Shown: in pieces, positions 2,344-33,372 of the stretch
How positions within the stretch are numbered: the first letter of the stretch is position 1
Layout of the letters: every line of letters starts with the position of its first letter
Source of the DNA: Ectothiorhodospiraceae bacterium
GTDB lineage: Bacteria > Bacteroidota > Ignavibacteria > SZUA-365 > GCA-2699105
DNA: 33,372 bases
NCBI GenBank assembly: GCA_002699105.1
Contig: PABJ01000138.1
Location: forward strand, 1-33,372
Direction of reading: 5' to 3'
The notes under the pieces: model-generated
Database searches by the model: none
What the model was told of the DNA's origin: nothing
The model's input: the letters and a program-made list of their open reading frames with translations, nothing else
Program-made: the position numbers and the translations under genes

Positions 2344-2509
2344 GAGGAATGAGTTCGCGTGGGGCTATGAGGGGATTGTGTTCACAGTTCCGGATTGTAT
2401 TCGAATGACAGCACGCAATATTCACTCTCATGTCGTGACATCCAAATCACAATGCCAACAGGCAAACCGAACTTTGATAATCCGGCAGCATGCGCTAGTT
2501 TGGAAAGCT

Positions 2510-4230: not shown

Positions 4231-4246
4231 GAGCCATCGGATTACC

Positions 4247-5161: not shown

Positions 5162-5528
5162 GAATCAGCAGAGCGAATTTCTGTTCGATCACAACGTCGA
5201 TGTTCCTCTGACGAACACTGCGTACTATCGTAAACCCGGGAAGCAGGGTTTCGAATTTACAACGTTCAATATCATTGTGATTCTGGTATTCGCAGGATTG
5301 ATCGCAACGGCATACATCTCAAATGTTGTCGCGGTTGACGATCTGATGATCCAGAGAACGAATCTTCGGGAAACGGAACAGAAGCTGCTTCAACAGCGAG
5401 AAAATTTGCGCGCTGATATCAACATGCTTACAAGCTACAATCGCATCCACAGTATCGCGCTAGAAAAACTGGGGCTCGTAGACGCTACCGAACGCCCTTA
5501 TGTATTCTCCAAGCCCGAAGGCGACTAA
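5091..5528 (+). CDS. ftsL: FtsL-like cell division protein
   Basis: This is a small bitopic membrane protein of about 145 residues. It has a basic, soluble N-terminus of roughly 55 residues, one membrane segment (FNIIVILVFAGLIATAYI), and a periplasmic coiled-coil-like region (LRETEQKLLQQRENLRADI) ending in IALEKLGLVDATERPYVF, which resembles the AxxKLGxxxP...Y close of FtsL/DivIC proteins. FtsL works with FtsQ and FtsB to activate FtsWI. Position between rsmH and ftsI is exactly that of ftsL. Possible ATG starts are 5076, 5091 and 5097; all overlap rsmH. 5091 was chosen arbitrarily between them. Sequence conservation in this family is low, so the name rests on topology and position. Confidence 0.8.
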   Translation: MKMKFSETIAREARDYARRKKPSENQQSEFLFDHNVDVPLTNTAYYRKPGKQGFEFTTFNIIVILVFAGLIATAYISNVVAVDDLMIQRTNLRETEQKLLQQRENLRADINMLTSYNRIHSIALEKLGLVDATERPYVFSKPEGD

Positions 5529-5538
5529 CGGCATAGAA

Positions 5539-7698: not shown

Positions 7699-7702
7699 GA
7701 CG

Positions 7703-9244: not shown

Positions 9245-9245
9245 T

Positions 9246-13113: not shown

Positions 13114-14260
13114 TGTTAGTGCTGTAAAAATTGGTAGAATAGACCTGTGGCTCTTTGGCGCAGTGCTTTTGCTGCTGGTTTTCAGCGCAGCATCAGTTTA
13201 CAGCGCAAGTATTACTATCTCTGAAATTCGTCATGGAGCGCCAGATGCAGTTTATAAGAGTCACATACTAAGAGTTGTTCTTGCCCTCGTAGCTTTGTTG
13301 ATTGGCGTGGTGGTAGACTATCGCATATACATGCGCTTGTCGAAGATTGCTATAATTATGGGTGTTGCGCTGTTGGTATTAACCTTGTTTGAGGGTACTG
13401 TCGTCAATGGTGCACGTAGATGGTTGGAGCTTGGACCACTGAAATTTCAACCATCTGAGTTCGTCAAGTACGCATTGGTATTTCATATCGCGACGATAGC
13501 TGTAATGAAGAATGAGAGAATCGGGACTTTCAAGGATGGTTTTCTCAAGACCTATGCATGGATAATGATCTCAACTGTACTGATTATTGTGCAACCTAAT
13601 TTTAGTACTGCAGCTGTTGTTTTACTAATCGGGACAGTTATGGCTTATGCTTGTGGCGTAAAGGTGAAATATATTGGTGCCAGTTTAGCCGCAGCATTAC
13701 CGTTGGTGGTGTTGTATGCCTTTAGCGCACCGTACAGAGTGCAGAGAATTGTATCGTTCTTTGGCCTAGGTGACGGTTCAGACACAAGAGTAGATGCCTC
13801 ACGATATCAGGTGGAGCAAGCGATCATTGGATTGGGTAGCGGCGGTATTATGGGCGTCGGTATGGGGATGAGTAAACAGCGTGAGTTGTTTCTTCCTGAA
13901 TCGTACAGTGATTTTGTCTTTGCTATCGTCGGTGAGGAGTATGGGTTTATCGGCGCATTACTGATACTATTTCTGTTTGCATTGATTACATTGCGTGGTG
14001 TGAGAATCGCAAAGAATGTTCAGGATGATTACGGGAGGTATCTGGCATTTGGTATTACTAGTGTGATAGCGATATACTCGATTATCAATGCCGGTGTGTC
14101 GGTGGGCCTGCTCCCAACAACTGGTTTACCGATGCCGTTTATCAGCTACGGTGGAACATCCCTTATAATTAGTGGATATGTCGTAGGCGTACTACTAAAC
14201 ATATCGACAAATACACGGATACGGCCTCGGGCCTATGAGGAGGCTGCTGCCGATGCTTAA
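13106..14260 (+). CDS. ftsW: Septal peptidoglycan polymerase FtsW (SEDS family)
   Basis: This 384-residue SEDS protein has about ten membrane segments and polymerises lipid II at the division site in a complex with FtsI. It carries NGARRWLELGPLKFQPSE, GVGMGMSKQRELFLPES with SDFVFAIVGEEYGF, and GLLPTTGLPMPFISYGG, which are the strongest FtsW/RodA signatures; its position between murD and murG supports FtsW over RodA. A TTG at 13091 would lengthen it by five codons, but the ATG at 13106 is preferred. The end overlaps murG by eight bases, and the murG ribosome binding site lies inside this gene. Confidence 0.95.
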   Translation: MNDVSAVKIGRIDLWLFGAVLLLLVFSAASVYSASITISEIRHGAPDAVYKSHILRVVLALVALLIGVVVDYRIYMRLSKIAIIMGVALLVLTLFEGTVVNGARRWLELGPLKFQPSEFVKYALVFHIATIAVMKNERIGTFKDGFLKTYAWIMISTVLIIVQPNFSTAAVVLLIGTVMAYACGVKVKYIGASLAAALPLVVLYAFSAPYRVQRIVSFFGLGDGSDTRVDASRYQVEQAIIGLGSGGIMGVGMGMSKQRELFLPESYSDFVFAIVGEEYGFIGALLILFLFALITLRGVRIAKNVQDDYGRYLAFGITSVIAIYSIINAGVSVGLLPTTGLPMPFISYGGTSLIISGYVVGVLLNISTNTRIRPRAYEEAAADA

Positions 14261-15377
14261 CCGGAATCCATATAAAGTTGTGTTTGCAGCCGGCGGTACT
14301 GGCGGGCATATATACCCGGCCATAGCGATAGCAGGTGAGCTTCAATTGGTTTCGCCCCACATTGAGGTCACTTTTATCGGTACCACAAACAGACTCGAAT
14401 CAAAGATCGTCCCAAGTAACGGATACACGCTGAAGTTCATCCCGGTTATGGGGCTTTCGAGAAGCTTGAGTATCAGGAATGTCTATGCCATCATGCTTCT
14501 CGTTTATGCCGTAATAAAGTGTATTGGTATTCTCAGACGTGAGCGAGCGAGCCTCGTCGTAGGAACTGGCGGCTATGTTTCTGCACCAACGGTTATCGGT
14601 GCACTCCTATCGGGAATCCCAGTGCTCATGCTAGAACAGAATGCGATACCTGGGATGGTGAATAAATACTTGGCTAAGTACGCAGAAGAGGTGCACTTGA
14701 GCTATGAGGTGACACAGAAACACCTTGACCGTAAAACACATTCCATTATTTCAGGAAATCCAATAAGACGACTCAGTGAAGTTGATAGAGAGTCTGCGCG
14801 TCGTGAAATTGGCATTGGAGGGGATAATCGAACTGTACTTGTCTTCGGTGGCAGTCTTGGAGCCTCTGCCATTAATTCGGTTTTGTTAGAACACATTGAT
14901 GACATTGTAGAGTCATCTATTCAAATGATATGGCAAACAGGCTCGAAAGACTACCAAAAGGTGGTCGATCGGGTTGATCAGCCAAATATCAGAGTCTATG
15001 AGTATATAGATGATATGGCGTCAGCATACTCTGCATGTGATCTTGTTGTATGCAGGGCAGGAGCTACGACAATTGCCGAACTGCAAGAGATGAACAAACC
15101 AGCGCTGCTTATACCATATCCACATAGCACAGATAACCATCAATATTACAACGCAAAGGGCTACGAAGAGATGGGGATGGGGCTTGTGATTGAAGAAAGT
15201 GAAATACGTGAACTTGTCCCCAGGATGATCGAGTATGCAATCGATGACGGTGGGCTGGAATTGAAAAGAAGAGATGGAACATCAAGCGGATCAATGAACG
15301 CACGTGAAGAGGTTACTGCTAGTGTAATGTCTCTATTGAAGAATACCACGGATGGTACGGTGAATCGATGCGGATAG
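14253..15377 (+). CDS. murG: UDP-GlcNAc--lipid I N-acetylglucosaminyltransferase
   Basis: This 374-residue GT28 glycosyltransferase adds GlcNAc to lipid I to make lipid II at the inner face of the membrane. It has the N-terminal loop AAGGTGGHIYPA at residues 12-23, VVGTGGYVSAP, LEQNAIPG, the GGSLGASAIN loop, and CRAGATTIAELQEMNKPALLIPYP for UDP-GlcNAc binding. An ATG exists at 14235, but the ATG at 14253 is preceded at nine bases by a strong GAGGAGG (14237-14243), so this start was chosen. The stop overlaps murC by ten bases. Confidence 0.95.
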   Translation: MLNRNPYKVVFAAGGTGGHIYPAIAIAGELQLVSPHIEVTFIGTTNRLESKIVPSNGYTLKFIPVMGLSRSLSIRNVYAIMLLVYAVIKCIGILRRERASLVVGTGGYVSAPTVIGALLSGIPVLMLEQNAIPGMVNKYLAKYAEEVHLSYEVTQKHLDRKTHSIISGNPIRRLSEVDRESARREIGIGGDNRTVLVFGGSLGASAINSVLLEHIDDIVESSIQMIWQTGSKDYQKVVDRVDQPNIRVYEYIDDMASAYSACDLVVCRAGATTIAELQEMNKPALLIPYPHSTDNHQYYNAKGYEEMGMGLVIEESEIRELVPRMIEYAIDDGGLELKRRDGTSSGSMNAREEVTASVMSLLKNTTDGTVNRCG

Positions 15378-16753
15378 CCAATATACACAACATACACTTT
15401 ATCGGTATTGGTGGTATCGGTATGAGCGGCTTAGCTCATTTGATGCTCAATGAAGGGTATCATGTGTCCGGCTCAGATATGAATGAGTCCGAGAACGTGC
15501 TAGATCTACGTAAAGCAGGTGCGCATATCGAGGTAGGTCATCGTGCCGAAAATGTAACAGATGCTGATCTAGTAGTATATAGCTCCGCCGTTCAGGAAGA
15601 GAATGTTGAGTTAGCTGAAGCCAGACTACGTGGAATCCCGGCCATAAAGCGCGCAGAGATGCTTGCGGAGGCAATGCGATTATATGATGGTATTGCAGTA
15701 TCTGGCACTCATGGAAAAACAACAACGACATCGATGTTGGGAAGTATTCTTATAGAGGCACAGCACGACCCTACCGTCATTGTGGGAGGTAAACTACATG
15801 CATTTGGCGATACCAATATCAGAGTCGGAAATGGTACTACAATGGTAGTTGAAGCCGATGAATATGATCGATCCTTCCTGCGATTGAATCCTGCAATTGT
15901 AGTGATCACCAATATCGATAATGATCATCTCGACACTTATGAAACAATTGACCAGATCGTTGAGGCCTTCAAATCCTTCGCAAATAAAGTGCCTTTCTAT
16001 GGCTTTGTGACCATATGCCTTGACGATGCCCAGCTACAGCGATTATTGCCACTCATAAATAGAAAGGTAGTAAGCTACGGTATAAACTCTCAATCCGATT
16101 ACCAGGCCAAAAATATCACAATGACTACCGATCGTACTGAATTCGACGTCGTGCATGACGGAGAGGTACAGGGGAGAATAGGCATCAGAATGCCAGGAGA
16201 GCACAACGTACAGAACGCAATTGCCGCAACGGCTGTAGCCTTGGAACTAGGTGCTGATTTCGGTTCTATTCAGACAGCGTTGAATGAATATGGCGGTGTA
16301 TTTAGACGGTTTGAATTAATCGAGCAAGTCGGTGAAACACAGTTCATCGATGATTATGCTCATCATCCTACTGAAGTAATGAGTACGCTAAAAGCCGCAA
16401 AGGCAGCAATGAAGAAACGTGTTGTCTGTGTGTTTCAGCCGCATACCTACTCGCGTACTCGAGATCAGTATCGAGAATTTGCACAAGCCTTTATACTTGC
16501 TGATATACTTATTGTTTTACCAGTATATCCCGCAAGAGAGGAACCCATCCAAGGAATTGATGGCCATTTGATCTCTGAAACGTCTCGGCGTTATGGTCAC
16601 AAGGCATCCTTCGCTGTGCAAACAAAAGAGGAAGCTGTGAGCAAAGTAATAGAAGTTATAAAAGAAGGTGATGTGTGTATCACGATGGGTGCAGGAGATG
16701 TTTACAAGCTGATGCCAGATATAATATCCAAGTACAAAGAAGGTGTGGGATAA
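15368..16753 (+). CDS. murC: UDP-N-acetylmuramate--L-alanine ligase
   Basis: This 461-residue ligase adds the first amino acid, L-alanine, to UDP-MurNAc. It starts with IHFIGIGGIGMSGLA (dinucleotide-like fold), has the P-loop SGTHGKTTTT at residues 112-121, EADEYDRSF, TNIDNDHLD and the MurC marker DDYAHHPTEV. The ATG lies inside the end of murG, and its stop is directly followed by the murB start codon. Confidence 0.96.
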   Translation: MRIANIHNIHFIGIGGIGMSGLAHLMLNEGYHVSGSDMNESENVLDLRKAGAHIEVGHRAENVTDADLVVYSSAVQEENVELAEARLRGIPAIKRAEMLAEAMRLYDGIAVSGTHGKTTTTSMLGSILIEAQHDPTVIVGGKLHAFGDTNIRVGNGTTMVVEADEYDRSFLRLNPAIVVITNIDNDHLDTYETIDQIVEAFKSFANKVPFYGFVTICLDDAQLQRLLPLINRKVVSYGINSQSDYQAKNITMTTDRTEFDVVHDGEVQGRIGIRMPGEHNVQNAIAATAVALELGADFGSIQTALNEYGGVFRRFELIEQVGETQFIDDYAHHPTEVMSTLKAAKAAMKKRVVCVFQPHTYSRTRDQYREFAQAFILADILIVLPVYPAREEPIQGIDGHLISETSRRYGHKASFAVQTKEEAVSKVIEVIKEGDVCITMGAGDVYKLMPDIISKYKEGVG

Positions 16754-21153: not shown

Positions 21154-22191
21154 ATGAAGGTGACATTAAGAGAGCGGACAGTGAAATCTGGAAGGACACA
21201 ACTCTACTTCGATATCTACTATGGCGATGGAAAGAGGAAAACGAAGGCATTCGGGACACTATCCGGCAATAGACAGCAAGACAAAGAAGCAAGGCGGATC
21301 GCAGGTGCAGCTCGTTCAAAGCTCGAAATAGAATTATTGAATGAATCGCATGGCTTCCACAAACCTTTCCAGTTAGAGCGCAACTTCTTCGAATTCTTCG
21401 ATCAAGTCATGGACAATAAAAAGGGGAACTATGGATGCTGGAAATCGACTCGCTTTCACCTAGTAAATTTTGTCGGTAAGGAGAGCCTTCATTTTAAAAC
21501 TATCACGCCTCAATGGTTAGAGTCCCTCAAATCTTATCTCTTATCACAAGTAGCTCCAAATACAGCAAGAGGGTACTACGCTGCGGTACGCGAAACTCTC
21601 AAGCGGGCAGTTCGTGAGGAAATAATCCCTGACAATCCGAGCGACAAGATCGACAACATCAAACCGCGTAACTCATATCGCCCTTATCTGACTCTCGAAG
21701 AATTAAACGAACTAGCGGTAGCGCCATGTGGTGATCCAGAAGTAGAACGAGCATTTCTTTTTTCTTGTCTCACTGGATTGAGGTTGGGAGACGTCAGGCG
21801 TCTGCAATGGAAGCACGTTCACATGAACAAGATCGAAATAGTTCAGAAAAAGACCTCCGAACCGATCTACCTATCGTTAAACGATCAGGCCATTGAATTA
21901 CTCGGTCAACGAGGTGACAATGAAGAGCGGATATTCGCCATACCGAGCGATTCACATCTATCTTTAATCATGCGGACCTGGGCCTCCGGTACGGGCATAA
22001 ACAAAAAGATTACATTTCACACTGCGAGACACACATTTGCCACTCTTGCTCTAACTAATGGAGTGGAGATTTATACGGTTTCCAAACTCTTAGGCCATTC
22101 CAGACTTGAGACCACTCAAGTGTATGCGAAGATTATCGACGCGAAGAAGGAGGACGCTGTCAAGATGTTACCTAAGATCAAGGTGAAGTGA
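21154..22191 (+). CDS. Tyrosine recombinase/integrase
   Basis: This 345-residue site-specific recombinase has an N-terminal arm-binding domain (MKVTLRERTVKSGRTQLYFD), a SAM-like core-binding domain at about 75-165, and a C-terminal catalytic domain with Arg210 (TGLRLGDVRRL), His289 and Arg292 (HTARHTF), His315 (LLGHSRLET) and the nucleophile Tyr324 (QVYAKI). The layout is the one common in integrases of Bacteroidota elements. AGGAGG at 21143-21148 gives a good ribosome binding site. It probably integrates or excises the surrounding element. All residues needed for catalysis are present. Confidence 0.92.
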   Translation: MKVTLRERTVKSGRTQLYFDIYYGDGKRKTKAFGTLSGNRQQDKEARRIAGAARSKLEIELLNESHGFHKPFQLERNFFEFFDQVMDNKKGNYGCWKSTRFHLVNFVGKESLHFKTITPQWLESLKSYLLSQVAPNTARGYYAAVRETLKRAVREEIIPDNPSDKIDNIKPRNSYRPYLTLEELNELAVAPCGDPEVERAFLFSCLTGLRLGDVRRLQWKHVHMNKIEIVQKKTSEPIYLSLNDQAIELLGQRGDNEERIFAIPSDSHLSLIMRTWASGTGINKKITFHTARHTFATLALTNGVEIYTVSKLLGHSRLETTQVYAKIIDAKKEDAVKMLPKIKVK

Positions 22192-22194
22192 AAC

Positions 22195-22635
22195 GTGTTT
22201 CTATTTACCTGCTACACAGGATTGAGGATTGGAGTTGTGCGCTCGTTAACATGGAATATGGTGTACGGGAATCAGATCGAGATAGCTCAGGAGAATCCAA
22301 AGGACCCAGTATATTTACCACTTTCCGACACAGCGCGTACGTATATGGGCAAACCAGGAATGGACGACAATCCAGTTTTTATATTACTTAGTAATTCGCA
22401 CTTATCGGTAATTTTAAAAACGTGGAGTTCGCCAGTTGGAATGAAGAAGAAGGTGACCTTCCATGTAGCTCGTCACACGTTTGCAACACTGGCTCTCTCA
22501 AGCGGTGCTGATATATACACAGTCTCCAAGCTACTCGTTCATTCAAGACTCGAAACGATACAAGTATATACGAAGATCATTGACTATAATAAAGTCGAAA
22601 CGGTAAATATGTTGCCTGATATTGGGATAGGTTAA
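22195..22635 (+). pseudogene. Truncated tyrosine recombinase, catalytic domain only
   Basis: The 146-residue frame, opening with GTG, is homologous to residues about 203-345 of the recombinase just upstream, beginning at FLFTCYTGLRIG and running to its end. The N-terminal arm-binding and core-binding domains are absent. Homology begins within a few bases of the upstream stop codon, which suggests that a deletion fused a second recombinase to the end of the first. All catalytic residues are retained (Arg11, His90, Arg93, His116, Tyr125), although the usual Gly before the second His is Val. The two copies are clearly diverged, so this is not a fresh tandem duplication. No ribosome binding site is seen; it is probably a remnant. 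Confidence 0.75.
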
Positions 22636-22647
22636 CTAAATGAGGGT

Positions 22648-23556
22648 ATGATAGCTATGAATGGATTACCAGATGATTATTATCACGAAGATCAGTTTCG
22701 AGGACACTGCAACAAACTGATGGATTCACTGCGACAAGAGTATAAGGAAGAGCTTGACAAAGTAGGTTCATCTGAAATAACGCCCGAACGCGCTGGAGAT
22801 ATTTTTAGGGTAGCCTGGGAGAAGTTCGACAATGAAATGACTCCTTTCTTGTTTTATCGCGCTATCACTGTACCAAAGAATGTGATGAGACATCTTAATA
22901 TTGACGATCAGGAACTTTCTGATAGTAGATATGCAGCATTATATAAGTCAAAACAATGGTGGGATGCCGTTGAAGAAATTTCAATAAATTCAATCCCCCC
23001 ACCTGGTTCTTTAATAGACCTAATCGCACAACCATTGCAGTTGTTTTCAAATGTAGAAAAAATCCAATACGTCGATTATGTTAAAACCATAGTGGTTCAG
23101 AGGTACTTGGTAGGTGTGGGTAGTTTACAAGATATGTACATGAAAGGGGCCGTTATTGATCCATTTCCTGAATTGATCGATTGGATCAAAGTCAATGCCA
23201 AATATTGGTCCAGATACTCGGAGACTAAATCATCTAACACTGTCTACTCTTATGGTCATTACATCGAGAATGAGTCTGGACGTCGGTTGTTCAACTGGAC
23301 CGCTAAATTAGTCCAATTGGCAAAGGTTCTAGTGGCAATAAAGTATGAAGATGGTTCTGAGTTTGTCTCGGCCTCTTCCGGAGAACTTGCGAGATTGGCA
23401 GAAGTCCGCATCCTCTACCATGGTGATAAGATCAAGGCAAATTCTCTTGAGACATCTATTAAGCGGGTTTTTGATGGATACGAGTCCCCATCTGCCATCC
23501 CAGATGGTGCCGTAGTAGTCATCAAACAAATTTTGCTAAACAGCAACAAATCTTAA
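22648..23556 (+). CDS. Hypothetical protein of the integrated element
   Basis: This 302-residue protein is not recognised. It appears soluble: there is no signal peptide or membrane segment. It is rich in Tyr, Ile, Lys and Asp, with a charged N-terminal half (KLMDSLRQEYKEELDKVG), a central hydrophobic stretch (SLIDLIAQPLQLF), and a C-terminal part (GELARLAEVRILYHGDKIKANSLETSIKRVF) that could be a small DNA-binding-like helical domain. ATG codons at 22648 and 22657 are both possible; GAGGG at 22641-22645 is better spaced for the second. It lies where Bacteroidota elements often carry a regulator of excision, but this is only context. Confidence 0.6.
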   Translation: MIAMNGLPDDYYHEDQFRGHCNKLMDSLRQEYKEELDKVGSSEITPERAGDIFRVAWEKFDNEMTPFLFYRAITVPKNVMRHLNIDDQELSDSRYAALYKSKQWWDAVEEISINSIPPPGSLIDLIAQPLQLFSNVEKIQYVDYVKTIVVQRYLVGVGSLQDMYMKGAVIDPFPELIDWIKVNAKYWSRYSETKSSNTVYSYGHYIENESGRRLFNWTAKLVQLAKVLVAIKYEDGSEFVSASSGELARLAEVRILYHGDKIKANSLETSIKRVFDGYESPSAIPDGAVVVIKQILLNSNKS

Positions 23557-23573
23557 TCCCAACAAAATTGGGA
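23557..23573. terminator. Short inverted repeat after the hypothetical gene
   Basis: TCCCAA (23557-23562) and TTGGGA (23568-23573) form a 6-base stem with a CAAAA loop directly after the stop codon. There is no T run, so this is a weak terminator candidate or an operator half of the next gene. Confidence 0.3.
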
Positions 23574-23602
23574 ACAATATTGGTGTAGTTGCTGACCTAC
23601 AT

Positions 23603-23640
23603 TTCCTGCAAGCAAATCATAAGCATGAACAATGCAGGAA
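23603..23640. promoter_or_regulatory. Inverted repeat upstream of the helix-turn-helix gene
   Basis: TTCCTGCA (23603-23610) and TGCAGGAA (23633-23640) are perfect inverted copies separated by 22 bases, ending 10 bases before the start codon of the helix-turn-helix gene. The right arm includes the AGGAA that would serve as its ribosome binding site, so pairing or protein binding here could control its expression. Autoregulation is an inference. Confidence 0.4.
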
Positions 23641-23650
23641 GACATCTCTC

Positions 23651-23947
23651 ATGGAAAACCAACTCAACTCACGGCTCAATGCCATTGAGGAGAAGCTTGA
23701 GGACCTCTCAGCATCACAACGAGACGTGCTGACCTTCCAACAAGCGGCTAAATACCTCGATTTCAGTCCTTCTTTCTTGTACAAACTCACCTCCCAAGGT
23801 AGAATCCCGCATAGTAAGCCGAATGGCAAGCGTATCTACTTCGATCGCCGGGAGCTAGATCGCTGGTTGCTGCAAAATCCCGTGAAAACGCAGGACGAGA
23901 TTGAGGCAGATGCACTTTCCTTCACAAAGTCGGGGAAGCGGAGCTAG
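23651..23947 (+). CDS. Helix-turn-helix protein, MerR/excisionase type
   Basis: This 98-residue protein has an N-terminal coiled-coil-like helix (LNSRLNAIEEKLEDL) and a winged helix-turn-helix of the excisionase (HTH_17) type: LTFQQAAKYLDFSPSFLYKLTSQGRIPHSKPNGKRIYFDRRELDRWL. Such proteins direct excision or regulate genes in integrated elements. It starts at an ATG following AGGAAG and sits just before the replication-initiator-like gene, with an inverted repeat upstream. Family assignment is firm; the specific role is inferred from the neighbours. Confidence 0.85.
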   Translation: MENQLNSRLNAIEEKLEDLSASQRDVLTFQQAAKYLDFSPSFLYKLTSQGRIPHSKPNGKRIYFDRRELDRWLLQNPVKTQDEIEADALSFTKSGKRS

Positions 23948-23999
23948 TATCCTGTGTCCCTTTATTAATAAGTGGGACAAGGATACAGTTTCTGTATCC
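23947..23999. promoter_or_regulatory. Overlapping alternative hairpins before the Rep-like gene
   Basis: GTATCCTGTGTCCC (23947-23960) can pair with GGGACAAGGATAC (23974-23986) around a TATTAATA loop, with one base unpaired. The right arm overlaps GGATACAG (23981-23988), which pairs perfectly with CTGTATCC (23992-23999). The two hairpins share bases 23981-23986 and so exclude each other. The site lies between the stop of the helix-turn-helix gene and the likely start of the Rep-like gene. It could be a replication origin nicked by Rep, an operator, or an attenuator. Confidence 0.5.
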
Positions 24000-24005
24000 G
24001 TACTC

Positions 24006-24941
24006 GTGTACGATACAGTCAAAATAGTGCACTCCAATGGTGAGTACGAGGAGATTCCTGGGCGACTAACAGGCGTTGTAAATCGTCGTGATCAATACGA
24101 TAAGCTACTCTCCTCCATAGGGAATCTAGTCAACCTGGACGTCCGCGTTACTGACAAGCACTGTACTATTCGAGGCTCACTCAGCAGGTTCTATCACGGA
24201 AGCAATCTTTACATTCTATCCAGGCAGGAAACAAAGGCCGCGATTGAGCAGATATCTGCACTCCTGGGTCTCGATATCAGTTATGCCAAATTAACGCGCA
24301 TTGATGTCGCATCAAATCTCATCATGGATCATCCTGTCTCGAGTTACCTCAAGCTTCTTCAATCCATCCCCCGTTACAAGAAGTCGCTCATAGGCCTACC
24401 TGAAAGTCCTAGTCTCTACTTTTCTACCACTCAAAGAAAGCTGCTTTTTTACGATAAAATCCATGAACTCAGGTCTAAAAGAGTATCTGTACCTGCTGAG
24501 TTCAGGGAAGCGAACCTGCTCCGATACGAACTTCGTTTCAATCGTCACCTGCCGCGGCAGTTCTCGGGAAAACGTGTGACGTGCGCTATGTTGTACGATG
24601 AAAGGTTTTACCAAAAGCTCGTTAGCCGTTGGCTTCAGGAGTACAAGAAGATTCGAAAAGCCCGGAAGCCGAAAGTTGGACACAGGGATATCACCGATTG
24701 TCGTGTGTTGAATTCATACCTGGCGACGATTGGATTGGAGAAAGTTGGCGCTGACACGATGCTTGATGATCTTTCTATTCGGCGCAGTAGTGGCCATATC
24801 GGCAAAACGCAGCACTCCCGCCTCAAGTCGAAGATATCGGCTCTCAGGTCGAATGAGGCCCACACAGTAGAGCACGAGCTTGCAAGAGAACTCGATGAGA
24901 AAATGCAAGCAGCAGCAGACTACCTGCATTCGCAGGCGTGA
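24006..24941 (+). CDS. Phage/plasmid replication initiator-like protein (gene II/X family-like)
   Basis: The 311-residue form begins at a GTG (MYDTVKIV). The pattern YAKLTRIDVASNL, then LYFSTTQRKLLFYDKIHEL, then LLRYELRFNRHLPRQF followed by MLYDERFYQKLVSRWLQEYKKI is the one seen in phage/plasmid replication proteins of the filamentous-phage gene II/X group, which nick an origin to start rolling-circle replication. The assignment is from pattern memory and is moderate. The frame is open upstream to an ATG at 23910 inside the helix-turn-helix gene; the GTG at 24006 fits family N-termini better but has no clear ribosome binding site. The hairpin cluster just upstream is a natural origin candidate. 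Confidence 0.6.
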   Translation: MYDTVKIVHSNGEYEEIPGRLTGVVNRRDQYDKLLSSIGNLVNLDVRVTDKHCTIRGSLSRFYHGSNLYILSRQETKAAIEQISALLGLDISYAKLTRIDVASNLIMDHPVSSYLKLLQSIPRYKKSLIGLPESPSLYFSTTQRKLLFYDKIHELRSKRVSVPAEFREANLLRYELRFNRHLPRQFSGKRVTCAMLYDERFYQKLVSRWLQEYKKIRKARKPKVGHRDITDCRVLNSYLATIGLEKVGADTMLDDLSIRRSSGHIGKTQHSRLKSKISALRSNEAHTVEHELARELDEKMQAAADYLHSQA

Positions 24942-25533: not shown

Positions 25534-26955
25534 ATGAACTACAATCTACTCGATGAACCCTGGATCCCCGTGCTATTTAGGGACGGGCGCTATGAGCGTC
25601 TCGGGATTACCGATACACTCACCAGGGCACATGAAATACGGCAGGTAGCCGCCAGCAACCCAATGGACCGTGTTGCGGTCCTGCGGTTTCTGCTTGCACT
25701 ACTCTACTGGTGCAAGGGCAATCCGCCTCGTGATGCCCAGACACAGCTACATGAACCGCTTCCATCAACCTGGTTCACAGCACTTACAGCACATCGAGGT
25801 GTGTTTGAGTTGTTTGGCAGCGGTAAACGTTTCTACCAATATGGCGGGCTAGGAAAGAAGAAACCGTTATCCGTGAACTCACTCATCCATGAGGTACCGA
25901 CAGGGACGAATATTAACCATTTCCGGCACTCGATCGACGGTGAAGACGGCCTCTGCCCCGCTTGCTGTGCTTTAGGACTCATCCGCCTGCCACTATTCAC
26001 AACCCAGGGAGGTCAGGGTAAAAGGCCCGGAGTGAATTTCAAACCCCCAATCTATCTCATCCCGGCTGGCGATAATCTGGCTGAGACGTTGCGCTTATCC
26101 TGGATGCAGATTAAGAACCTCGGTGCCCCAATATGGAATCGAGACACCTACCACATCCCGATAGACGGTGAAATCTTGTTTTTGGAGGCGCTGACTGCAC
26201 TCCCACGCAGGGTGTGGCTTCGCAATCCGGATATCGAAGACCGGTGCATCTCATGCGGTAGATTCACGGACCTTGTTAGGGAATGCGATTTCGAAGGCGC
26301 CCCGAAAAGGGAGCTACCTAATAGCTGGCAGGACCCGCACGTTGTGTATTTCCTCAATGAGGATGAGATCCGCTCAGCGCGTGCAGATAATACTATGAAG
26401 CCTGGTGGGTTCAGGACCGACCGTCCCTGGTCGAGGCTCATGGAGCGCTTTCTTGGTGCAGAATCCCTTGCCTCCAGAGATACCGATACTCGCTTCCTGA
26501 TCGTCGGCTTCGCATCTGATCAGACGAAATACATCGACGCTTGGGAACGTACATTCACACTACCTGCCAACACCAACAGGATAGCAGCATCCGATGCGAT
26601 AGACAGATGGTCGGCTGCCGGCGCAAGAATGCCGTGGCGGATAAAACATCCATCCCCACAGCGCAAACCATCATCGAACGAAAAGGCTATAATTGGCTCC
26701 ATCCGGCCGCATATAGAACACACAATTTCCTCGAACCTGACAGAGCTTGTTACTTGGGATGACGAATCCTGGAACGAGGCATCCATGGAGTACCGCAAGC
26801 TGATGGAGGGAGTTGCTGAATCACTATCCCCAGGTTACAGTACCGCTGCCGTTCGGCGCCGGGGATACCTGTCTCGCGTATTACCTGATTTGAGCCAGAA
26901 ACAGAACGACGTTTCAGAGACCGAACCGGAGGATGAGGAAGATGCAGATTCTTGA
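25534..26955 (+). CDS. casA: Type I-E Cascade large subunit Cse1 (Cas8e)
   Basis: This 473-residue protein begins MNYNLLDEPWIPVLFRDG, the characteristic Cse1 N-terminus, and ends in an acidic tail. In type I-E Cascade this subunit recognises the PAM, starts DNA unwinding and recruits Cas3. Two Cys groups are visible, C141/C144/C145 (CPACC) and C238/C241 (CISC) with C251, which could together bind zinc. The frame extends to 25495, but the ATG at 25534 matches the family start; no strong ribosome binding site is seen. The end overlaps cse2 by 14 bases. Because no cas3 is present, whether the Cas3 docking surface survives is an open point. Confidence 0.93.
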   Translation: MNYNLLDEPWIPVLFRDGRYERLGITDTLTRAHEIRQVAASNPMDRVAVLRFLLALLYWCKGNPPRDAQTQLHEPLPSTWFTALTAHRGVFELFGSGKRFYQYGGLGKKKPLSVNSLIHEVPTGTNINHFRHSIDGEDGLCPACCALGLIRLPLFTTQGGQGKRPGVNFKPPIYLIPAGDNLAETLRLSWMQIKNLGAPIWNRDTYHIPIDGEILFLEALTALPRRVWLRNPDIEDRCISCGRFTDLVRECDFEGAPKRELPNSWQDPHVVYFLNEDEIRSARADNTMKPGGFRTDRPWSRLMERFLGAESLASRDTDTRFLIVGFASDQTKYIDAWERTFTLPANTNRIAASDAIDRWSAAGARMPWRIKHPSPQRKPSSNEKAIIGSIRPHIEHTISSNLTELVTWDDESWNEASMEYRKLMEGVAESLSPGYSTAAVRRRGYLSRVLPDLSQKQNDVSETEPEDEEDADS

Positions 26956-27508
26956 ACTTGAAACTCGAGGCACTACGGGATTCGTCGGAAAACTTACGGC
27001 CCTAAAGGAGGGCGATCTTGCCGTACTTCGCGGATTGGCAAATCAGCCGCTTGACACGAGCCTGGAAGGATTTGATCTCTTTACCGGATTATGGTGGGGG
27101 TTGCGGCAGGCGGATAAATGGACCCCAGGCCGAGAGGTATCGTGGCTGGCATGTAAACTCTATGCGCAGAACCCACAACCTCAGCAAGACGGAGCGGCAC
27201 TCCCATTCCTTCTGCGCCAATATATGATGAGTCAATATGGAAATGATTTGGATGGGAGAGACCGGTTCTCGCAGAAATTGGACCGTCTACTCGCATCCTC
27301 GTTTGCAGAACTGGAATCCCAATTAACATGGGCAATCCGACTCGTACGCAGGGACGAACCAAAAGCGAAAAAAAACCCAGAGAGCAATGTCGGCGATCCC
27401 CGGGGTTTCGATTGGGTACATCTCATCAACAGCCTTTCTCACTGGGATAGAAGCACTACACGCACTAAATGGGCAGAACAATTTCTCAATATTCATACCG
27501 GAGTATAG
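26942..27508 (+). CDS. casB: Type I-E Cascade small subunit Cse2 (Cas11e)
   Basis: This 188-residue, mainly helical protein occupies the casB position. It shows FDLFTGLWWGLRQ, a typical Cse2 pattern of Arg/Trp-rich helices, RFSQKLDRLLASSFAELESQL, and WVHLINSLSHWDRS near the C-terminus, which resembles the Cse2 LL--L--W ending. Two copies normally line the belly of Cascade and hold the target strands. The ATG at 26942 was chosen because GGAGG at 26928-26932 is nine bases upstream; an ATG at 26933 abuts that site. It overlaps cse1 and is followed by cas7 after two bases. Confidence 0.9.
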   Translation: MQILELETRGTTGFVGKLTALKEGDLAVLRGLANQPLDTSLEGFDLFTGLWWGLRQADKWTPGREVSWLACKLYAQNPQPQQDGAALPFLLRQYMMSQYGNDLDGRDRFSQKLDRLLASSFAELESQLTWAIRLVRRDEPKAKKNPESNVGDPRGFDWVHLINSLSHWDRSTTRTKWAEQFLNIHTGV

Positions 27509-27510
27509 CT

Positions 27511-28689
27511 ATGTACATCACAATCCACATGATCCAAAATCACAGTCCGGCAAATCTCAATAGGGACGATCTCGGTGCCCCCAAGACCTGCTACTTCGGT
27601 GGTGCTTTGCGGTCTCGCATATCGAGTCAGTGTTTGAAACGCAGCATCCGGCTCAGCAGTGAATTCCGCGACTTGCTTGGTGGTATACGGACGCGCAGGC
27701 TGGCCGATATGCTTGTACAAGAAATTGAAGAAGCAGACATGAAGTCCGGCACCCGCAAAAAAGCCGTGAAGGTTCTAAAAAAATGCGGATTCGATACAAA
27801 AGAAAAAGCAGGCGAGGAGGGGCATGATCATACAGAGATGCTGATTTACACAACTCGCAATGCAATCCGGGAAATGGCGGAGATCCTCAAAAACGCGAAC
27901 GGCGAGAGCGATGATGAGTTAGCAAAGAAATTCGGCGAGCTTATAGCCGAGAGGACAGCGGTTCCCGATATGGCACTGAGTGGAAGAATGCTCGAGCCTG
28001 GCAAGGCTGGCAAAGAAGTCTGGAAAAACAGGAACACAACAGTTGAAGCGGCTCTCCAGGTGGCGCATGCCCTCTCAACACATGAAGCGCGTCCGGAAGT
28101 AGACTATTACGTGGCAGCTGACGATGTGCGCGAACACGCCGAGGATGCGGGTGCTGGCTATGTTGACGAGGCCATGTACAACTCGGCATGCTTCTACAAG
28201 TACTTCTCCATTAACTGGGAGCAATTGGTGGGCAATCTGCAGGATAAGAAGGAACTCGCTGCGCATACAGTGGGCACATTCATTCTGGGTGCAGCCTTTG
28301 CGAATCCGAGCGGCAAGCAAAACAGCTTCGCAGCACACAATTTGCCGGATGGTATCGTGGTCGAACTCCGCAAGTCCCCCGTGAGCTACGCAAATGCCTT
28401 TGCACGGCCAGTTGAGAGCCGTGGTGAGCGAGGCGTCATTGAACAGAGTATTGCGCAGCTGGGGAGCTATATGAACGATCTGGATGCAGGATACGGAGGA
28501 CCGGAGCATCGGTTGTGGTTCTCTCCGAATGGCCGGCATACATTGAATGAAGGCGAGTCTTCATTCCAGAGTGAAGCGCTACGCTCCATTGACGATCTTA
28601 TCACCACTACGCTTACTAGACTGGGCTTCGAATGGGAAAAAGTACGTCAAGTGAAGGTCGATGCTGACGCGCTAAAGGCTGAATTATGA
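27511..28689 (+). CDS. casC: Type I-E Cascade backbone subunit Cas7 (Cse4)
   Basis: This 392-residue RAMP protein begins MYITIHMIQNHSPANLNRDDLGAPKTCYFGG followed by RSRISSQCLKRSIR, the classic Cas7e opening whose RNA-binding fold coats the crRNA spacer. AADDVREHAEDAGAGYVDEAMYNSACFYKYFSINW and KQNSFAAHNLPDGIVVELR are further Cas7e hallmarks. Six copies form the Cascade backbone in the model system. The ATG at 27511 follows GGAG and lies directly after the cse2 stop. The TGA overlaps the cas5 start (ATGA). It is somewhat longer than the E. coli protein (363 residues), with a Lys-rich insertion around residues 85-110. Confidence 0.95.
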   Translation: MYITIHMIQNHSPANLNRDDLGAPKTCYFGGALRSRISSQCLKRSIRLSSEFRDLLGGIRTRRLADMLVQEIEEADMKSGTRKKAVKVLKKCGFDTKEKAGEEGHDHTEMLIYTTRNAIREMAEILKNANGESDDELAKKFGELIAERTAVPDMALSGRMLEPGKAGKEVWKNRNTTVEAALQVAHALSTHEARPEVDYYVAADDVREHAEDAGAGYVDEAMYNSACFYKYFSINWEQLVGNLQDKKELAAHTVGTFILGAAFANPSGKQNSFAAHNLPDGIVVELRKSPVSYANAFARPVESRGERGVIEQSIAQLGSYMNDLDAGYGGPEHRLWFSPNGRHTLNEGESSFQSEALRSIDDLITTTLTRLGFEWEKVRQVKVDADALKAEL

Positions 28690-29852
28690 GTAGGCACACA
28701 CTTTTTCTCAGACTGGAAGGACCGCTCCAGGCGTGGGGTGGCCACGAAGCGAAATTCGTCATACGCAGGTGTGCAGAAGCTCCCACAAAATCAGCCATCA
28801 TTGGGATGCTGCTTGCTGCCAAGGGTATCGACCGGAGCAAAGCAGTAGAGGAAAATTGGCTATCTGAGCTATCACAGCTCTCGATGGGTGTGAGGATCGA
28901 TAGACCTGGTGTGCGCTGGTGGGATTATCACACGGTTGGAGCAGATATAGGTACCCACTCTGCGCAGGGCAAGGTGAAACGGACCGCCGCTACAGGTGAG
29001 ATCGAGACGTTTGTATCCCGAAGGGAATACCTCTGCGACGCGAGCTTTCTCGTTGCTCTGCAGGGTGATGCAGATCTTATGGAAAAACTCGCTACTGCGC
29101 TGGCTAATCCTGAATGGACGCCCTTTCTCGGGCGTAAATCCTGTCCACCAAGTGTACCGCTCCTAATGCGTGACAAAAACCCCTCTGAGCACGACTCACT
29201 CGAAGCAGCACTCCGTTCTCTGCCTTGGCAACCACGCATGCAGGGAGACAAGACACCGGATTCTTTGCATTGCATACTGGACTGGAAACCATCCGAGAAT
29301 GAACCAAACGCACCGCCTGATGCAGAAATCTGGTACGATATACCTCTCAGCTTCGATCCGCCTTCACATGCTCCACGGTTCATAGAGCGAATAGAGCTCG
29401 CTGTTGGAGGTCAGGACGGTGTCCCGGTTGCAGGTGTTCCGCTGGTGAGCAAAACACCCTCTCCCCCCCGACCGCGTGCAGACTACAGGAATTCAGAGTA
29501 CCAGACTGCCAGGCAGAACCGACTTGCACACGACCAATATCTCTGTGTGTTTTGCAAGTCACCTGCAAATACCGTCCAACACATCACGTATAGGAATGCC
29601 GGTGGCGCCGAACAGCAGGAGGACCTGCGTGCCCTTTGCCGCCTATGCCATGATGCAGTAACGATGATCGAGTACGGAGAAGGTATGGGTATGGATCGTG
29701 TGGACCCGAAAGACCCGAGATGGAGGAAGCAGATAATCGATAACCGAGCAAATATTGTTGAGCATCGTTCGCGTGAGAAAAAACGCCGCATGATGATCAA
29801 GGCAGACCCGGAGAGAGCAGCCAGATTCAAAGACGAAGAGGAGGACGACTGA
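28686..29852 (+). CDS. casD: Cas5e fused to a C-terminal HNH nuclease (Cas5-HNH)
   Basis: Residues 1-240 are a Cas5e: LFLRLEGPLQAWGGH at the start, APTKSAIIGMLLAA, VSRREYLCDASFLVAL and TPFLGRKSCPPSVPL. Ordinary Cas5e ends near here. This protein continues through a Pro-rich linker (about 241-265, with PSPPRPR) into an HNH endonuclease fold: C287 and C290, VQHITY with the likely general base H299, GGAEQQEDLRALC, and C318, C321, H322. The four Cys should bind a structural zinc. A basic, then acidic tail of about 60 residues follows. Cas5 caps the crRNA 5' handle and touches Cse1 near the PAM. With no cas3 in the window, the HNH domain is the likely target-DNA nuclease. The reading frame is continuous across the fusion. 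The residue before H299 is Gln298, where HNH enzymes usually have Asp or His. Confidence 0.93.
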   Translation: MSRHTLFLRLEGPLQAWGGHEAKFVIRRCAEAPTKSAIIGMLLAAKGIDRSKAVEENWLSELSQLSMGVRIDRPGVRWWDYHTVGADIGTHSAQGKVKRTAATGEIETFVSRREYLCDASFLVALQGDADLMEKLATALANPEWTPFLGRKSCPPSVPLLMRDKNPSEHDSLEAALRSLPWQPRMQGDKTPDSLHCILDWKPSENEPNAPPDAEIWYDIPLSFDPPSHAPRFIERIELAVGGQDGVPVAGVPLVSKTPSPPRPRADYRNSEYQTARQNRLAHDQYLCVFCKSPANTVQHITYRNAGGAEQQEDLRALCRLCHDAVTMIEYGEGMGMDRVDPKDPRWRKQIIDNRANIVEHRSREKKRRMMIKADPERAARFKDEEEDD

Positions 29853-30685
29853 TGTACTATTCGTATCTCATCATCGACACTGGCGGCAACCCCGATAGAC
29901 CGAGACCGGGACGGAACTGGATAAAAGATGTCTATGCCGTGCATCGCCGCCTATGTATGGGCTTCCCGTCTGATCAGAAACGCCAGTCCGACCCGCAATT
30001 CCTGGATGAGTTTGATATGGTTGGTTTTACATCGAACAGCCGTAGGCCGGACCTCCACAACGATACTCCTCGTGGGAAATCAAATCGTCCAAATTTCCTG
30101 TTCAGGATCGAAAACACGATCAGAGGTAACGAAACCCAGGCTGCAATCGTGGTTCGCTCTGAGAAGCCTCCAGACTGGGAATACGCATTTTGTAATGCTC
30201 GGACACTGCTCGCAAATGTTCCAATAATGGAGCCGCGTGTGTATAACCCCGAATTCAGGGTAGGGCAGAAACTTCAATACCGGATTCGCATGAATCTGAG
30301 TAAAAAAAGCAAGCTTGTCGCTGCTGAAAACGGCGAGAAGAATGAACTCTCTAAACCCAAACGAATGGCATTCACCTGGGAGCCTGACCGAAGCCGCGAT
30401 GAGCAAATCCAGGACTGGTTTGTGATGAAGACAGCAGGGAAGGGGCTGAATGTTCTTTCCTGTGAAGTAGAACAAATTGGCTGGGTACGCGGCTGGAAGC
30501 CTGAAGCCCGGCAAAAGGTGAACGGCAATTTTGAGAAGCACAGGCATCGTCTGCAGTACCGATCTGCAATGCTAAACGGTACGCTGGAAGTGACCAATCC
30601 CGAGGAATTCCACACGGCACTTACTGCCGGTATCGGCTCTGCGAAAGCATTCGGCTTTGGCTTGCTCTCAGTGCGTGAAGTATAG
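29852..30685 (+). CDS. casE: Type I-E crRNA endoribonuclease Cas6e (Cse3)
   Basis: This 277-residue ferredoxin-like RAMP nuclease cuts the repeat hairpin to make mature crRNAs and stays bound to the 3' handle. VYAVHRRLCMGFP places the catalytic histidine at residue 31, and the C-terminal glycine-rich loop GIGSAKAFGFG (260-270) is the Cas6e signature. NFLFRIENT and WVRGWKPEA lie between. The start overlaps the cas5-HNH stop (TGATG). A hairpin terminator candidate follows 20 bases after the stop, which separates the Cascade genes from the mini-array and cas1-cas2. Confidence 0.94.
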   Translation: MYYSYLIIDTGGNPDRPRPGRNWIKDVYAVHRRLCMGFPSDQKRQSDPQFLDEFDMVGFTSNSRRPDLHNDTPRGKSNRPNFLFRIENTIRGNETQAAIVVRSEKPPDWEYAFCNARTLLANVPIMEPRVYNPEFRVGQKLQYRIRMNLSKKSKLVAAENGEKNELSKPKRMAFTWEPDRSRDEQIQDWFVMKTAGKGLNVLSCEVEQIGWVRGWKPEARQKVNGNFEKHRHRLQYRSAMLNGTLEVTNPEEFHTALTAGIGSAKAFGFGLLSVREV

Positions 30686-30705
30686 CACGATGTTTCCCAC
30701 ACACT

Positions 30706-30733
30706 CGGGACGGTGCGCGTCCCGGCGATTTTT
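30706..30733 (+). terminator. Terminator candidate after cas6e
   Basis: CGGGAC (30706-30711) pairs with GTCCCG (30719-30724) around a 7-base loop, followed after GCGA by five T (30729-30733). The gap between stem and T run makes it imperfect, but it lies just after the Cascade operon and could end that transcript before the mini-array. Confidence 0.5.
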
Positions 30734-30767: not shown

Positions 30768-30857
30768 ATTCTCCCCACGCCCGTGGGGCTGTACCTCCAA
30801 GTGAAGAGGTTCAACTTGAAGCGGTGAATTCTTCCCCACCCTTGTGGGGCCCTATCC
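30768..30857 (+). CRISPR. One-spacer mini-array between cas6e and cas1
   Basis: Bases 30768-30795 match the 28-base repeat of the main array exactly. A 32-base spacer follows (30796-30827), then a degenerate repeat (30828-30857) that keeps ATTC, CCCCAC and GTGGGG but has one added T near its start, CCTT for the usual GCCC before GTGGGG, and a changed 3' end. A degenerate last repeat is typical of an array's distal end. The 40 bases before the first repeat do not resemble the leader of the main array. The spacer is one base shorter than the main-array norm and contains TTCAACTTGAA, an internal palindrome. It may be an old remnant or produce a dedicated crRNA-like regulatory RNA. Confidence 0.85.
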
Positions 30858-30886: not shown

Positions 30887-31876
30887 ATGAAAGAACATGA
30901 AGTGCCTGTAATGCCGTTAAAATCCCGAATATCAACGTTCACCGTCGAGCGTGGTGCCGTTGAACGTGAAGGGACTGCTTTGATCGTCCAGGATGCAACA
31001 GGAGTACGGGCACAAGTGCCAGTAGGCGCAATCGCCGCACTCATGCTAGAGCCGGGTACGACGATTACCCATGAGGCAATCAAGCTATGTGCGGAACATA
31101 AAACACTCATTTTATGGACTGGTGAAGCTGGAGTACGTATCTATTCTGCAGGTCAAGAGGGAGCGGCACATACCTACCGTCTTCTACGGCAAGCCCGGCT
31201 TGCACTCAGCGAGAAATCCCAGCTTGCTGTTGCCAGAGAAATGTACAGGTTACGATTCCGTGAAGAAGCCCCGTTGAAGCGATCCATTGAGCAATTGCGA
31301 GGGATGGAGGGTGCGCGCGTTCGCAATCGCTATCGTGAGTTGAGTCTTGAGTATGGAATCGAATGGAACGGGAGAAACTACGACCGAAAAGACTGGTGGG
31401 CTGGAGATCCCATTAACCGCGCGATCTCAGCAGCGAATAGTTGCCTTTATGGAATTTGTCATGCCGCAATACTCATCGCGGGGTACAGTGCAGCCATCGG
31501 ATTTGTTCACACTGGATACCCGCTAGCCTTTGTTCACGATATTGCTGATTTATACAAGATGGATATCGCCGTGCCCTTGGCATTCCGTCTCACCGCCGAG
31601 GATGAACATCATATCAGCGCAAAAGTGCGCCATGCACTCCGTGACGAGTTCCGCTCGACTGGATTGCTAGAAAAGCTCATCCCTCAAATCGAATCTGTTC
31701 TGAACGCAGGCGAGGAGGAAGGAACGCCACCTCCAGAGATAGCCGGCTCCCGAAGGGATGAAGACTTGGAGCCCGAGGATTTCCCATGGCTGCTCCACCT
31801 TGATCCCGAACAGCGATACGGTGGATATCCTCAAAGTGGTCAGGCGGGTAGTAATGCTCCAGATAAAGAGGTGTGA
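30887..31876 (+). CDS. cas1: CRISPR spacer integrase Cas1 (type I-E)
   Basis: This 329-residue integrase, with Cas2, inserts new spacers at the leader end. The metal-binding residues fall at E141 (MEGARVRNRYRELS), H208 (GFVHTGYPLAF) and D221 (HDIADLYK), the same numbering as the well-studied E. coli protein. AGGAAG precedes the ATG at a suitable distance. A Pro- and Glu-rich C-terminal tail after about residue 285 is normal for Cas1e in kind, if a little long. It follows the mini-array by 29 bases and is followed by cas2 after two bases. Confidence 0.96.
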   Translation: MKEHEVPVMPLKSRISTFTVERGAVEREGTALIVQDATGVRAQVPVGAIAALMLEPGTTITHEAIKLCAEHKTLILWTGEAGVRIYSAGQEGAAHTYRLLRQARLALSEKSQLAVAREMYRLRFREEAPLKRSIEQLRGMEGARVRNRYRELSLEYGIEWNGRNYDRKDWWAGDPINRAISAANSCLYGICHAAILIAGYSAAIGFVHTGYPLAFVHDIADLYKMDIAVPLAFRLTAEDEHHISAKVRHALRDEFRSTGLLEKLIPQIESVLNAGEEEGTPPPEIAGSRRDEDLEPEDFPWLLHLDPEQRYGGYPQSGQAGSNAPDKEV

Positions 31877-31878
31877 AC

Positions 31879-32166
31879 ATGGTAGTTTATTCGGTCGAAT
31901 GCGCACCGCAGCGGCTTCGAGGTGTACTTTCACGTTACTGCCTGGAGATAAGGGCGGGACTGTTTGTTGGACGTCTAGACGCGCGAATGCGCGAGCTATT
32001 GTGGGAAAAGATCCTCGATCTTGCCAAAGAGGATACAAATGCGGTAATGATCTGGCGGACTCCGACCGAACAGGGTTACAGCATGCGCCAGTATGGCGAA
32101 GACGCCCGCAATTGCGTTGAGATGGATGGGATTTGGCTTATCGAATACGAGGGGGCAAGGTCCTGA
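31879..32166 (+). CDS. cas2: Cas2 (type I-E)
   Basis: This 95-residue protein begins MVVYSVECAPQRLRGVLSRYCLEIRAGLFVGRLDARMRELLW, the standard Cas2e pattern (P-RLRG-L--W--E---G--VG). It forms the central dimer of the Cas1-Cas2 integrase. The ATG at 31879 follows AGAGG; a GTG at 31873 inside the cas1 end is a less likely start. It lies immediately before the leader, as in most type I-E loci. No nuclease domain is fused to it. Confidence 0.94.
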   Translation: MVVYSVECAPQRLRGVLSRYCLEIRAGLFVGRLDARMRELLWEKILDLAKEDTNAVMIWRTPTEQGYSMRQYGEDARNCVEMDGIWLIEYEGARS

Positions 32167-32241
32167 GTAGCATTGTGCGCTACCAGCTCGTTCGTTGAGC
32201 AATTCTTTTGGAAAAATGGCGAATATGACGATATTTCAAGT
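32167..32241 (+). promoter_or_regulatory. Leader of the main CRISPR array
   Basis: The 75 bases between the cas2 stop and the first repeat should hold the array promoter and the signals for leader-end integration. They include a short inverted pair GTAGC/GCTAC (32167-32171 and 32179-32183) and an A/T-rich stretch TTCTTTTGGAAAAATGG that could bend or bind a factor. No clear promoter boxes are seen. Confidence 0.6.
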
Positions 32242-33372
32242 ATTCTCCCCACGCCCGTGGGGCTGTACCGTAATACTTGATGACGGGGTTGGTGCGGAGC
32301 TCATTCTCCCCACGCCCGTGGGGCTGTACCCTTCAAACCCCGCCGCCTGGCCCCGAAGGACGAATTCTCCCCACGCCCGTGGGGCTGTACCTCGTTATGC
32401 GGATACTTGCCGACGACTACGGTTATTCTCCCCACGCCCGTGGGGCTGTACCCTCATTGCTTAGCTCGATGGGCGATCTGCAGGCGATTCTCCCCACGCC
32501 CGTGGGGCTGTACCGACTTCGCTGAGCTTGCTGGAGCCACGATCTAAATTCTCCCCACGCCCGTGGGGCTGTACCGCAGAAGATCGAGACGCACGCGAAG
32601 GCCCTGGCATTCTCCCCACGCCCGTGGGGCTGTACCCAGCCCCCAGTGCTGGTACCAGAGCGAGCCGTCATTCTCCCCACGCCCGTGGGGCTGTACCCAA
32701 CAGGAGTGATCATGCGCACGATACTCACAAATTCTCCCCACGCCCGTGGGGCTGTACCTTCCATCATCTGCACAGGAGGCGTATGAGATGCATTCTCCCC
32801 ACGCCCGTGGGGCTGTACCCACGGAGGTACGAGATCGTGAGATATAGCATACATTCTCCCCACGCCCGTGGGGCTGTACCCTCTAAGCCATAGCGGATGT
32901 TCTTTGTTTATCAATTCTCCCCACGCCCGTGGGGCTGTACCCCACTTGCGCTATGAATTTCTCTGCATGGACCGATTCTCCCCACGCCCGTGGGGCTGTA
33001 CCCGCAACTACAAACGGCTCACGCGCGAACTCAAAATTCTCCCCACGCCCGTGGGGCTGTACCGGAAAATCGAGGCGATGTCTCCGAGGACTATTCATTC
33101 TCCCCACGCCCGTGGGGCTGTACCTACGTGCAAGAGTTCGAGGATGAAAGCGGCAACATTCTCCCCACGCCCGTGGGGCTGTACCGGATTATAGGTGTTA
33201 CGACTTCGCTGGCGGTCGATTCTCCCCACGCCCGTGGGGCTGTACCTTCGCTCCGCCGCCGTGATTCGATATAGCTTTTATTCTCCCCACGCCCGTGGGG
33301 CTGTACCCATTCGCGTATTGCTTTCGATATGCCCGCCGCTATTCTCCCCACGCCCGTGGGGCTGTACCCACA
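32242..33372 (+). CRISPR. Type I-E CRISPR array, at least 19 repeats, cut by the window edge
   Basis: Nineteen repeats of 28 bases start at 32242 and recur every 61 bases, the last at 33341-33368; four bases of the next spacer follow. All repeats look identical. They begin ATTCTCCCC and end GGGGCTGTACC, with the hairpin arms CCCCACG and CGTGGGG, like other I-E repeats and in the same orientation. Spacers are 33 bases except the fourth (32453-32486), which is 34. The array lies directly after cas2 and its leader, so new spacers should enter at the left end. No spacer was seen to match elsewhere in the window. Confidence 0.98.

Follow-up and report, generated by a model that had tools for sequence, protein, structure and literature searches.

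A Cas3-less type I-E CRISPR locus that joins a Cas5-HNH Cascade to Cas1-Cas2 of an ordinary type I-E lineage

The window analysed here, a stretch of 33,372 nucleotides, carries a type I-E CRISPR-Cas operon in which an HNH nuclease domain follows Cas5 in frame, and it raises the question of how such a system would cut its targets and from which lineage it obtained the machinery that captures its spacers.

The Cas5-HNH fusion and its operon

The locus is complete and has the order cas8e-cas11-cas7e-cas5HNH-cas6e-cas1-cas2-array, without cas3, all on the forward strand. Pfam and NCBIfam profiles identified every other type I-E Cascade gene in the operon: cas8e (Cse1, the PAM-recognition subunit; 25534..26955; PF09481, 6.8e-45), cas11 (Cse2; 26933..27508; PF09485, 3.3e-10), cas7e (27511..28689; TIGR01869, 1.2e-79) and cas6e (29852..30685; PF08798, 4.8e-32), the last retaining the catalytic-site histidine that corresponds to E. 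coli H20. The start of cas7e was set at MYITIHM (27511), and the longer frame that begins at 27469 was used for the TIGR01869 search. A weak intrinsic-terminator-like hairpin lies 3' of cas6e (30704..30731, +), such hairpins being about as numerous in this region as expected by chance. The adaptation genes follow: cas1e (30887..31876; TIGR03638, 2.2e-104), whose product retains the catalytic E141, H208, D218 and D221 and has Tyr in place of Lys211, and cas2e (31873..32166; TIGR01873, 4.2e-21). The initial annotation had described an otherwise normal type I-E Cascade operon, which holds for the Cascade genes and for cas1-cas2 but not for cas3: a profile search found none in the locus and none in the host genome, a MAG of 74% completeness in which a distant cas3 is possible. 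The sub-threshold Cas3 matches in this genome were RecG, Mfd, CshA-like and SNF2 helicases, and the remaining weak ones were an HDIG protein and a spurious hit next to a TolC-family gene.

The fusion gene itself (28686..29852, +) is a single uninterrupted frame of 388 codons, consisting of Cas5e (about residues 1-240), a linker (about 241-265) and the HNH domain (about 266-370). Both parts matched profiles, residues 5-227 the Pfam family Cas_Cas5d (4.8e-40) and residues 5-179 the NCBIfam family casD_Cas5e (TIGR01868, 2.8e-43), with residues 287-325 matching Pfam HNH (PF01844, 1.3e-5; 25.6 bits against a curated cut-off of 21.4) and, weakly, an IscB model. The zinc ligands are C287, C290, C318 and C321 and the catalytic histidine is H299; the motifs first noticed (C287-C290, VQH with H299, and C318/C321/H322) are all present and the in-frame fusion then proposed is borne out, with no frameshift or stop between the two domains. 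The AlphaFold2 model of the protein (pLDDT 86) had as its top fold match a solved Cas5-HNH chain, 8zlu_B (E 4.3e-45); the fold matches 8zlu, 8yha and 8yb6 show 51-54% identity to the fusion, and the Cas5-HNH chains of PDB entries 8yb6, 8zp9 and 9jxs align to residues 4-370 (E 7e-119). Furthermore, full-length fusions with 42-60% identity to the window protein were found in 59 other loci, and all 60 proteins share C287, C290, H299, C318, C321 and H322; the pattern used in the scan partly overlaps C318-H322, while C287, C290 and H299 lie outside it. This recurrence, together with the six invariant residues, excludes chance or a frameshift artefact; the gene is a genuine, undamaged fusion, typical of its family.

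That family is already known: in 2023 Altae-Tran et al. described a type I-E Cascade with Cas5-HNH in Candidatus Cloacimonetes (PMC10910872), and the window system belongs to this kind, as the initial annotation had proposed in pointing to a Cas3-less type I variant. When the HNH extension was used to seed a scan of 84,980 species genomes, 58 further Cas5-HNH loci were recovered in at least a dozen phyla, their hosts including Planctomycetota, Nitrospirota, Nitrospinota, Armatimonadota, Chloroflexota, Hydrogenedentota, Cloacimonadota, Synergistota, Acidobacteriota, Myxococcota, Thermodesulfobacteriota, Sumerlaeota and Kapabacteria. On contigs long enough to show it, the gene order is cas8-cas11-cas7-cas5HNH-cas6-cas1-cas2 followed by the array, with few exceptions such as L036 and L042, in which no cas1-cas2 was found. 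None of the 58 genome loci contains cas3, and a whole-genome search found no Cas3 core above the cut-off in 36 of the 50 genomes that carry Cas5-HNH; cas3 was present in all 14 ordinary type I-E operons examined, and in all five relatives from the host's class with an ordinary Cas5e it shares a contig with cas5, at a distance of about 5-8 kb. The host's close relatives lack the fusion. The Cas5 domains of the fusions fall on one side of a branch that separates them from seven ordinary Cas5e proteins (SH-aLRT 97), a split that would fit a single fusion event followed by wide transfer.

Two further observations concern the arrangement of these loci. In a Synergistaceae MAG (L074, positions 1-15696, with L036) an ordinary cas3-bearing type I-E operon is followed by an array of 95 repeats and then by a Cas5-HNH Cascade without cas1-cas2, so that a single array is flanked, and probably shared, by a shredding effector and a precisely cutting one. 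In addition, the first repeat of Cas5-HNH loci (L012-L067, and 32166-32242 in the window) starts about 4-100 nt, often 9-20 nt, 3' of cas2, which leaves little space for a separate leader or promoter.

Interference and adaptation modules of different descent

In phylogenetic trees the Cas7, Cas6 and Cas8 proteins of the window grouped with those of other Cas5-HNH systems (support 100 for Cas7). Constraining them with the ordinary loci L159 and L164 was rejected for Cas7 (p-AU 3.8e-4) and Cas6 (0.04), and constraining Cas8 with L159 alone was likewise rejected (5e-7); a placement of Cas7 at the base of the Cas5-HNH clade gave a p-AU of 0.12, its placement with L159/L164 being the one rejected. 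Cas1 and Cas2 showed the opposite affinity, each grouping with L159 (genome G179) and L164 (G421) at support 99-100. Both of these are Cas3-bearing type I-E loci, and L164 comes from the host's own class. Constraining the two proteins with the Cas5-HNH group was rejected at p-AU 1.2e-3 for Cas1 and 2.6e-5 for Cas2. The Cas1-Cas2 lineage shared by the other Cas5-HNH members, a usual rather than a defining trait, is thus not the one found in the window. The locus is a hybrid, with Cas8, Cas7, Cas5 and Cas6 of the Cas5-HNH clade and Cas1 and Cas2 of an ordinary Cas3-bearing type I-E lineage, and the join falls between cas6 and cas1. A second hybrid is possible in Candidatus Kapabacteria (L067), whose Cas1, with Arg211, falls among ordinary type I-E Cas1 proteins, its Cas8 and Cas6 pairing with those of the window.

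At this junction of the interference and adaptation modules lies a mini-array (30768..30857, +), in which one perfect repeat copy (30768-30795) is followed by a spacer of 32 nt and then by a degenerate repeat whose stem is kept. Among the other Cas5-HNH loci whose repeat could be derived, none carries a repeat in the interval from cas6 to cas1, and a search of the host genome found the spacer of the mini-array nowhere else. We infer that the mini-array is what remains, at this join, of the trailing end of an older array. Its layout of repeat, spacer and degenerate repeat within a cas operon also resembles that of a CreR-like regulatory guide, which would direct Cascade to the cas promoter, but its seed match to the region upstream of cas8 is only 8 nt, other spacers of the array reaching 9, and no relative carries a mini-array. 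Since this complementarity does not go beyond chance, CreR-type autoregulation was rejected, and a regulatory role of this sort is very unlikely.

A little less probable still is that the hybrid is a product of tree artefact or mis-assembly and that the locus is simply an ordinary Cas5-HNH operon passed on by vertical descent. In favour of this are the MAG origin of the genome and some long branches in the trees; however, Cas1 and Cas2 join L159/L164 with nearly full support and their placement with Cas5-HNH is rejected, and Cas7, Cas8 and Cas6 show the reverse pattern in the constraint tests. Moreover, the presence of one and the same repeat on either side of cas1-cas2 (at 30768 and from 32242) speaks against a mis-assembly, and Tyr211 of Cas1 and the base signature of the array are mutually consistent. 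The hybrid reading is therefore retained. Two things are new in this locus, the exchange of its adaptation module and the pattern at residue 211; the initial annotation had noted neither the foreign origin of Cas1-Cas2 nor the mini-array. The hybrid means that effector and memory-making modules have recombined, and comparing hybrids exposes a Cas1 residue that tracks the PAM-derived base of the array.

Cas1 residue 211 and the PAM-derived base

The CRISPR array (32242..33372, +) has a 28-nt repeat, ATTCTCCCCACGCCCGTGGGGCTGTACC, and 33-nt spacers with the PAM-derived base counted in. It runs off the contig end and almost certainly continues on contig C15 of the same genome, which has 58 more copies of the same repeat in the same orientation. 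In type I-E systems the last repeat base derives from the PAM (PMC8482600), and molecular dynamics on crystal structures showed that E. coli Cas1 uses Lys211 to contact C28, the base complementary to the PAM G (PMC6395717). Over the window array and C15 together the PAM-derived base was C in 32, G in 26, T in 17 and A in none of 75 spacers, an absence of A whose chance at a background of 0.24 is about 1e-9. Across 38 other Cas5-HNH arrays, in comparison, 771 of 822 repeats carry G at this position; within Cas5-HNH loci, those with Lys211 have G in 625 of 654, against 35-78% in the four loci with another residue. Ordinary type I-E systems of the same phylum followed the residue as well, Lys211 going with G (271 of 278) and Ser211 with C or T (561 of 582). 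Two ordinary Tyr211 systems gave C23 G15 T4 A0 and C11 G5 T5 A0, so that the three Tyr211 arrays together contain no A in 138 spacers.

The identity of residue 211 was thus a predictor of the PAM-derived base in 58 other type I-E arrays (L126-L170 included), with Lys going with G, Ser with C or T and Tyr with C, G or T. G was fixed (at least 80%) in 33 of 34 loci with Lys and in 0 of 25 with other residues, counting 59 loci with the window included and L164 left out. The three Tyr211 Cas1 proteins are sisters, and relatedness limits the independent contrasts on supported branches to four, which point in one direction without exception (sign test 0.125); as a pattern the rule is strong, and its causal reading is inferential. 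No statement of such a rule was found in a literature search. On balance we favour the view that in this natural hybrid Cas1 residue 211 acts as a natural switch for the last PAM base (Lys for G, Ser for C or T, Tyr for anything but A), and that the system samples, and probably targets, more PAMs than its relatives; the relaxation at position -1 is suggested by the spacers themselves and by the published Cas1 contacts. Searches for protospacers gave none for the array among phage records, and none in IMG/VR for five spacer cores (that of the mini-array and four of the array).

Cleavage, comparison with known systems and genomic setting

The Cloacimonetes Cas5-HNH Cascade performs PAM-dependent precise double-stranded DNA cleavage, is inactivated by mutation of HNH residues and also gives collateral single-stranded DNA cleavage (PMC10910872). 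The expectation of defined cuts in place of processive degradation has thus been demonstrated for a relative of the window system. The further proposal that the nuclease would sit near the start of the R-loop is unsupported, because in the relative the HNH domain lies between Cas6 and Cas11 and cuts 3-4 and 8 bp past the PAM-distal end, as summarised in a commentary on the cryo-EM structures (PMC11822464). By analogy, Cas6e would produce crRNAs from the array 3' of cas2 to be loaded by Cas8e-Cas11-Cas7-Cas5-Cas6, a matching target with a suitable PAM would allow an R-loop to form, and the HNH domain on the C-terminus of Cas5 would make cuts at defined positions in both strands, past the PAM-distal end, replacing the absent Cas3. 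New spacers would be captured by the Cas1-Cas2 of the different, ordinary type I-E lineage, whose Tyr211 would no longer demand G as the last PAM base. We hold with high confidence this account as a whole, an HNH-cutting Cascade that replaces Cas3 and is fed by ordinary type I-E Cas1-Cas2 with a relaxed last PAM base. It builds on the gene architecture, the residue conservation, the lack of cas3, the incongruent modules and the spacer-base statistics observed here, cleavage and cut positions being those expected from the characterised relative. That the HNH part is instead inactive, the complex only binding DNA as a repressor or in a decaying locus, is the least probable alternative, since the replacement of the central Asn of the classical HNH motif ('EDLRALC') is shared identically by the active Cloacimonetes protein, H299 and the other five residues are invariant across the 60 loci, every frame is open and the long array holds 75 different spacers.

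Compared with the Cloacimonetes system (PMC10910872; 8yb6, 8yha, 8zlu, 9jxs), the window shares the full-length fusion at the identity given above, the zinc and histidine residues, the Cascade genes and the lack of Cas3. It differs in its Cas1-Cas2, which come from another type I-E lineage and carry Tyr211, in its repeat handle (CTGTACC plus a variable base, against GTGAACCG in Cloacimonetes), in the mini-array between cas6 and cas1 and in a host outside Cloacimonadota. With canonical type I-E of E. coli it has in common Cas8e, Cas11, Cas7, the Cas5e domain, Cas6e, Cas1e, Cas2e and the repeat architecture, but it lacks Cas3 and has a nuclease domain fused to Cas5. Cas8-HNH type I-F1 Cascade (PMC11480323, PMC11459484) is similar in that Cas3 gives way to an HNH domain carried by a Cascade subunit, and is an independent fusion in another subtype, with another HNH-bearing subunit (Cas8) and other cut positions. 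The window therefore adds a divergent homologue, from a lineage unlike the characterised one, to the precise RNA-guided nucleases with editing use.

Lastly, mobile-element genes stand between the cell-division cluster that ends in ftsZ, on their left, and the cas operon on their right (21154..24941, +): a tyrosine integrase, an integrase fragment, an ORF of unknown function, an excisionase-like HTH gene and a filamentous-phage-type replication protein. The fragment (22195-22635) encodes 146 C-terminal residues directly after the full integrase, and is a partial tandem copy. A similarity search for a plasmid or phage origin matched ordinary Cas5e only. On contig C15 a terminase small subunit (L096, 3535-4905; 4e-39) lies beyond the end of the array, on the side facing away from the integrase and replication genes, so the cas locus may lie inside a phage-like element, on which it may travel or in which it may have landed. 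In an IMG/VR contig (L005, 1-8259), cas8-cas11-cas7-cas5HNH adjoins genes for a phage portal, a head maturation protease and a scaffold-like protein, and this Cas5-HNH system is possibly phage- or prophage-borne.
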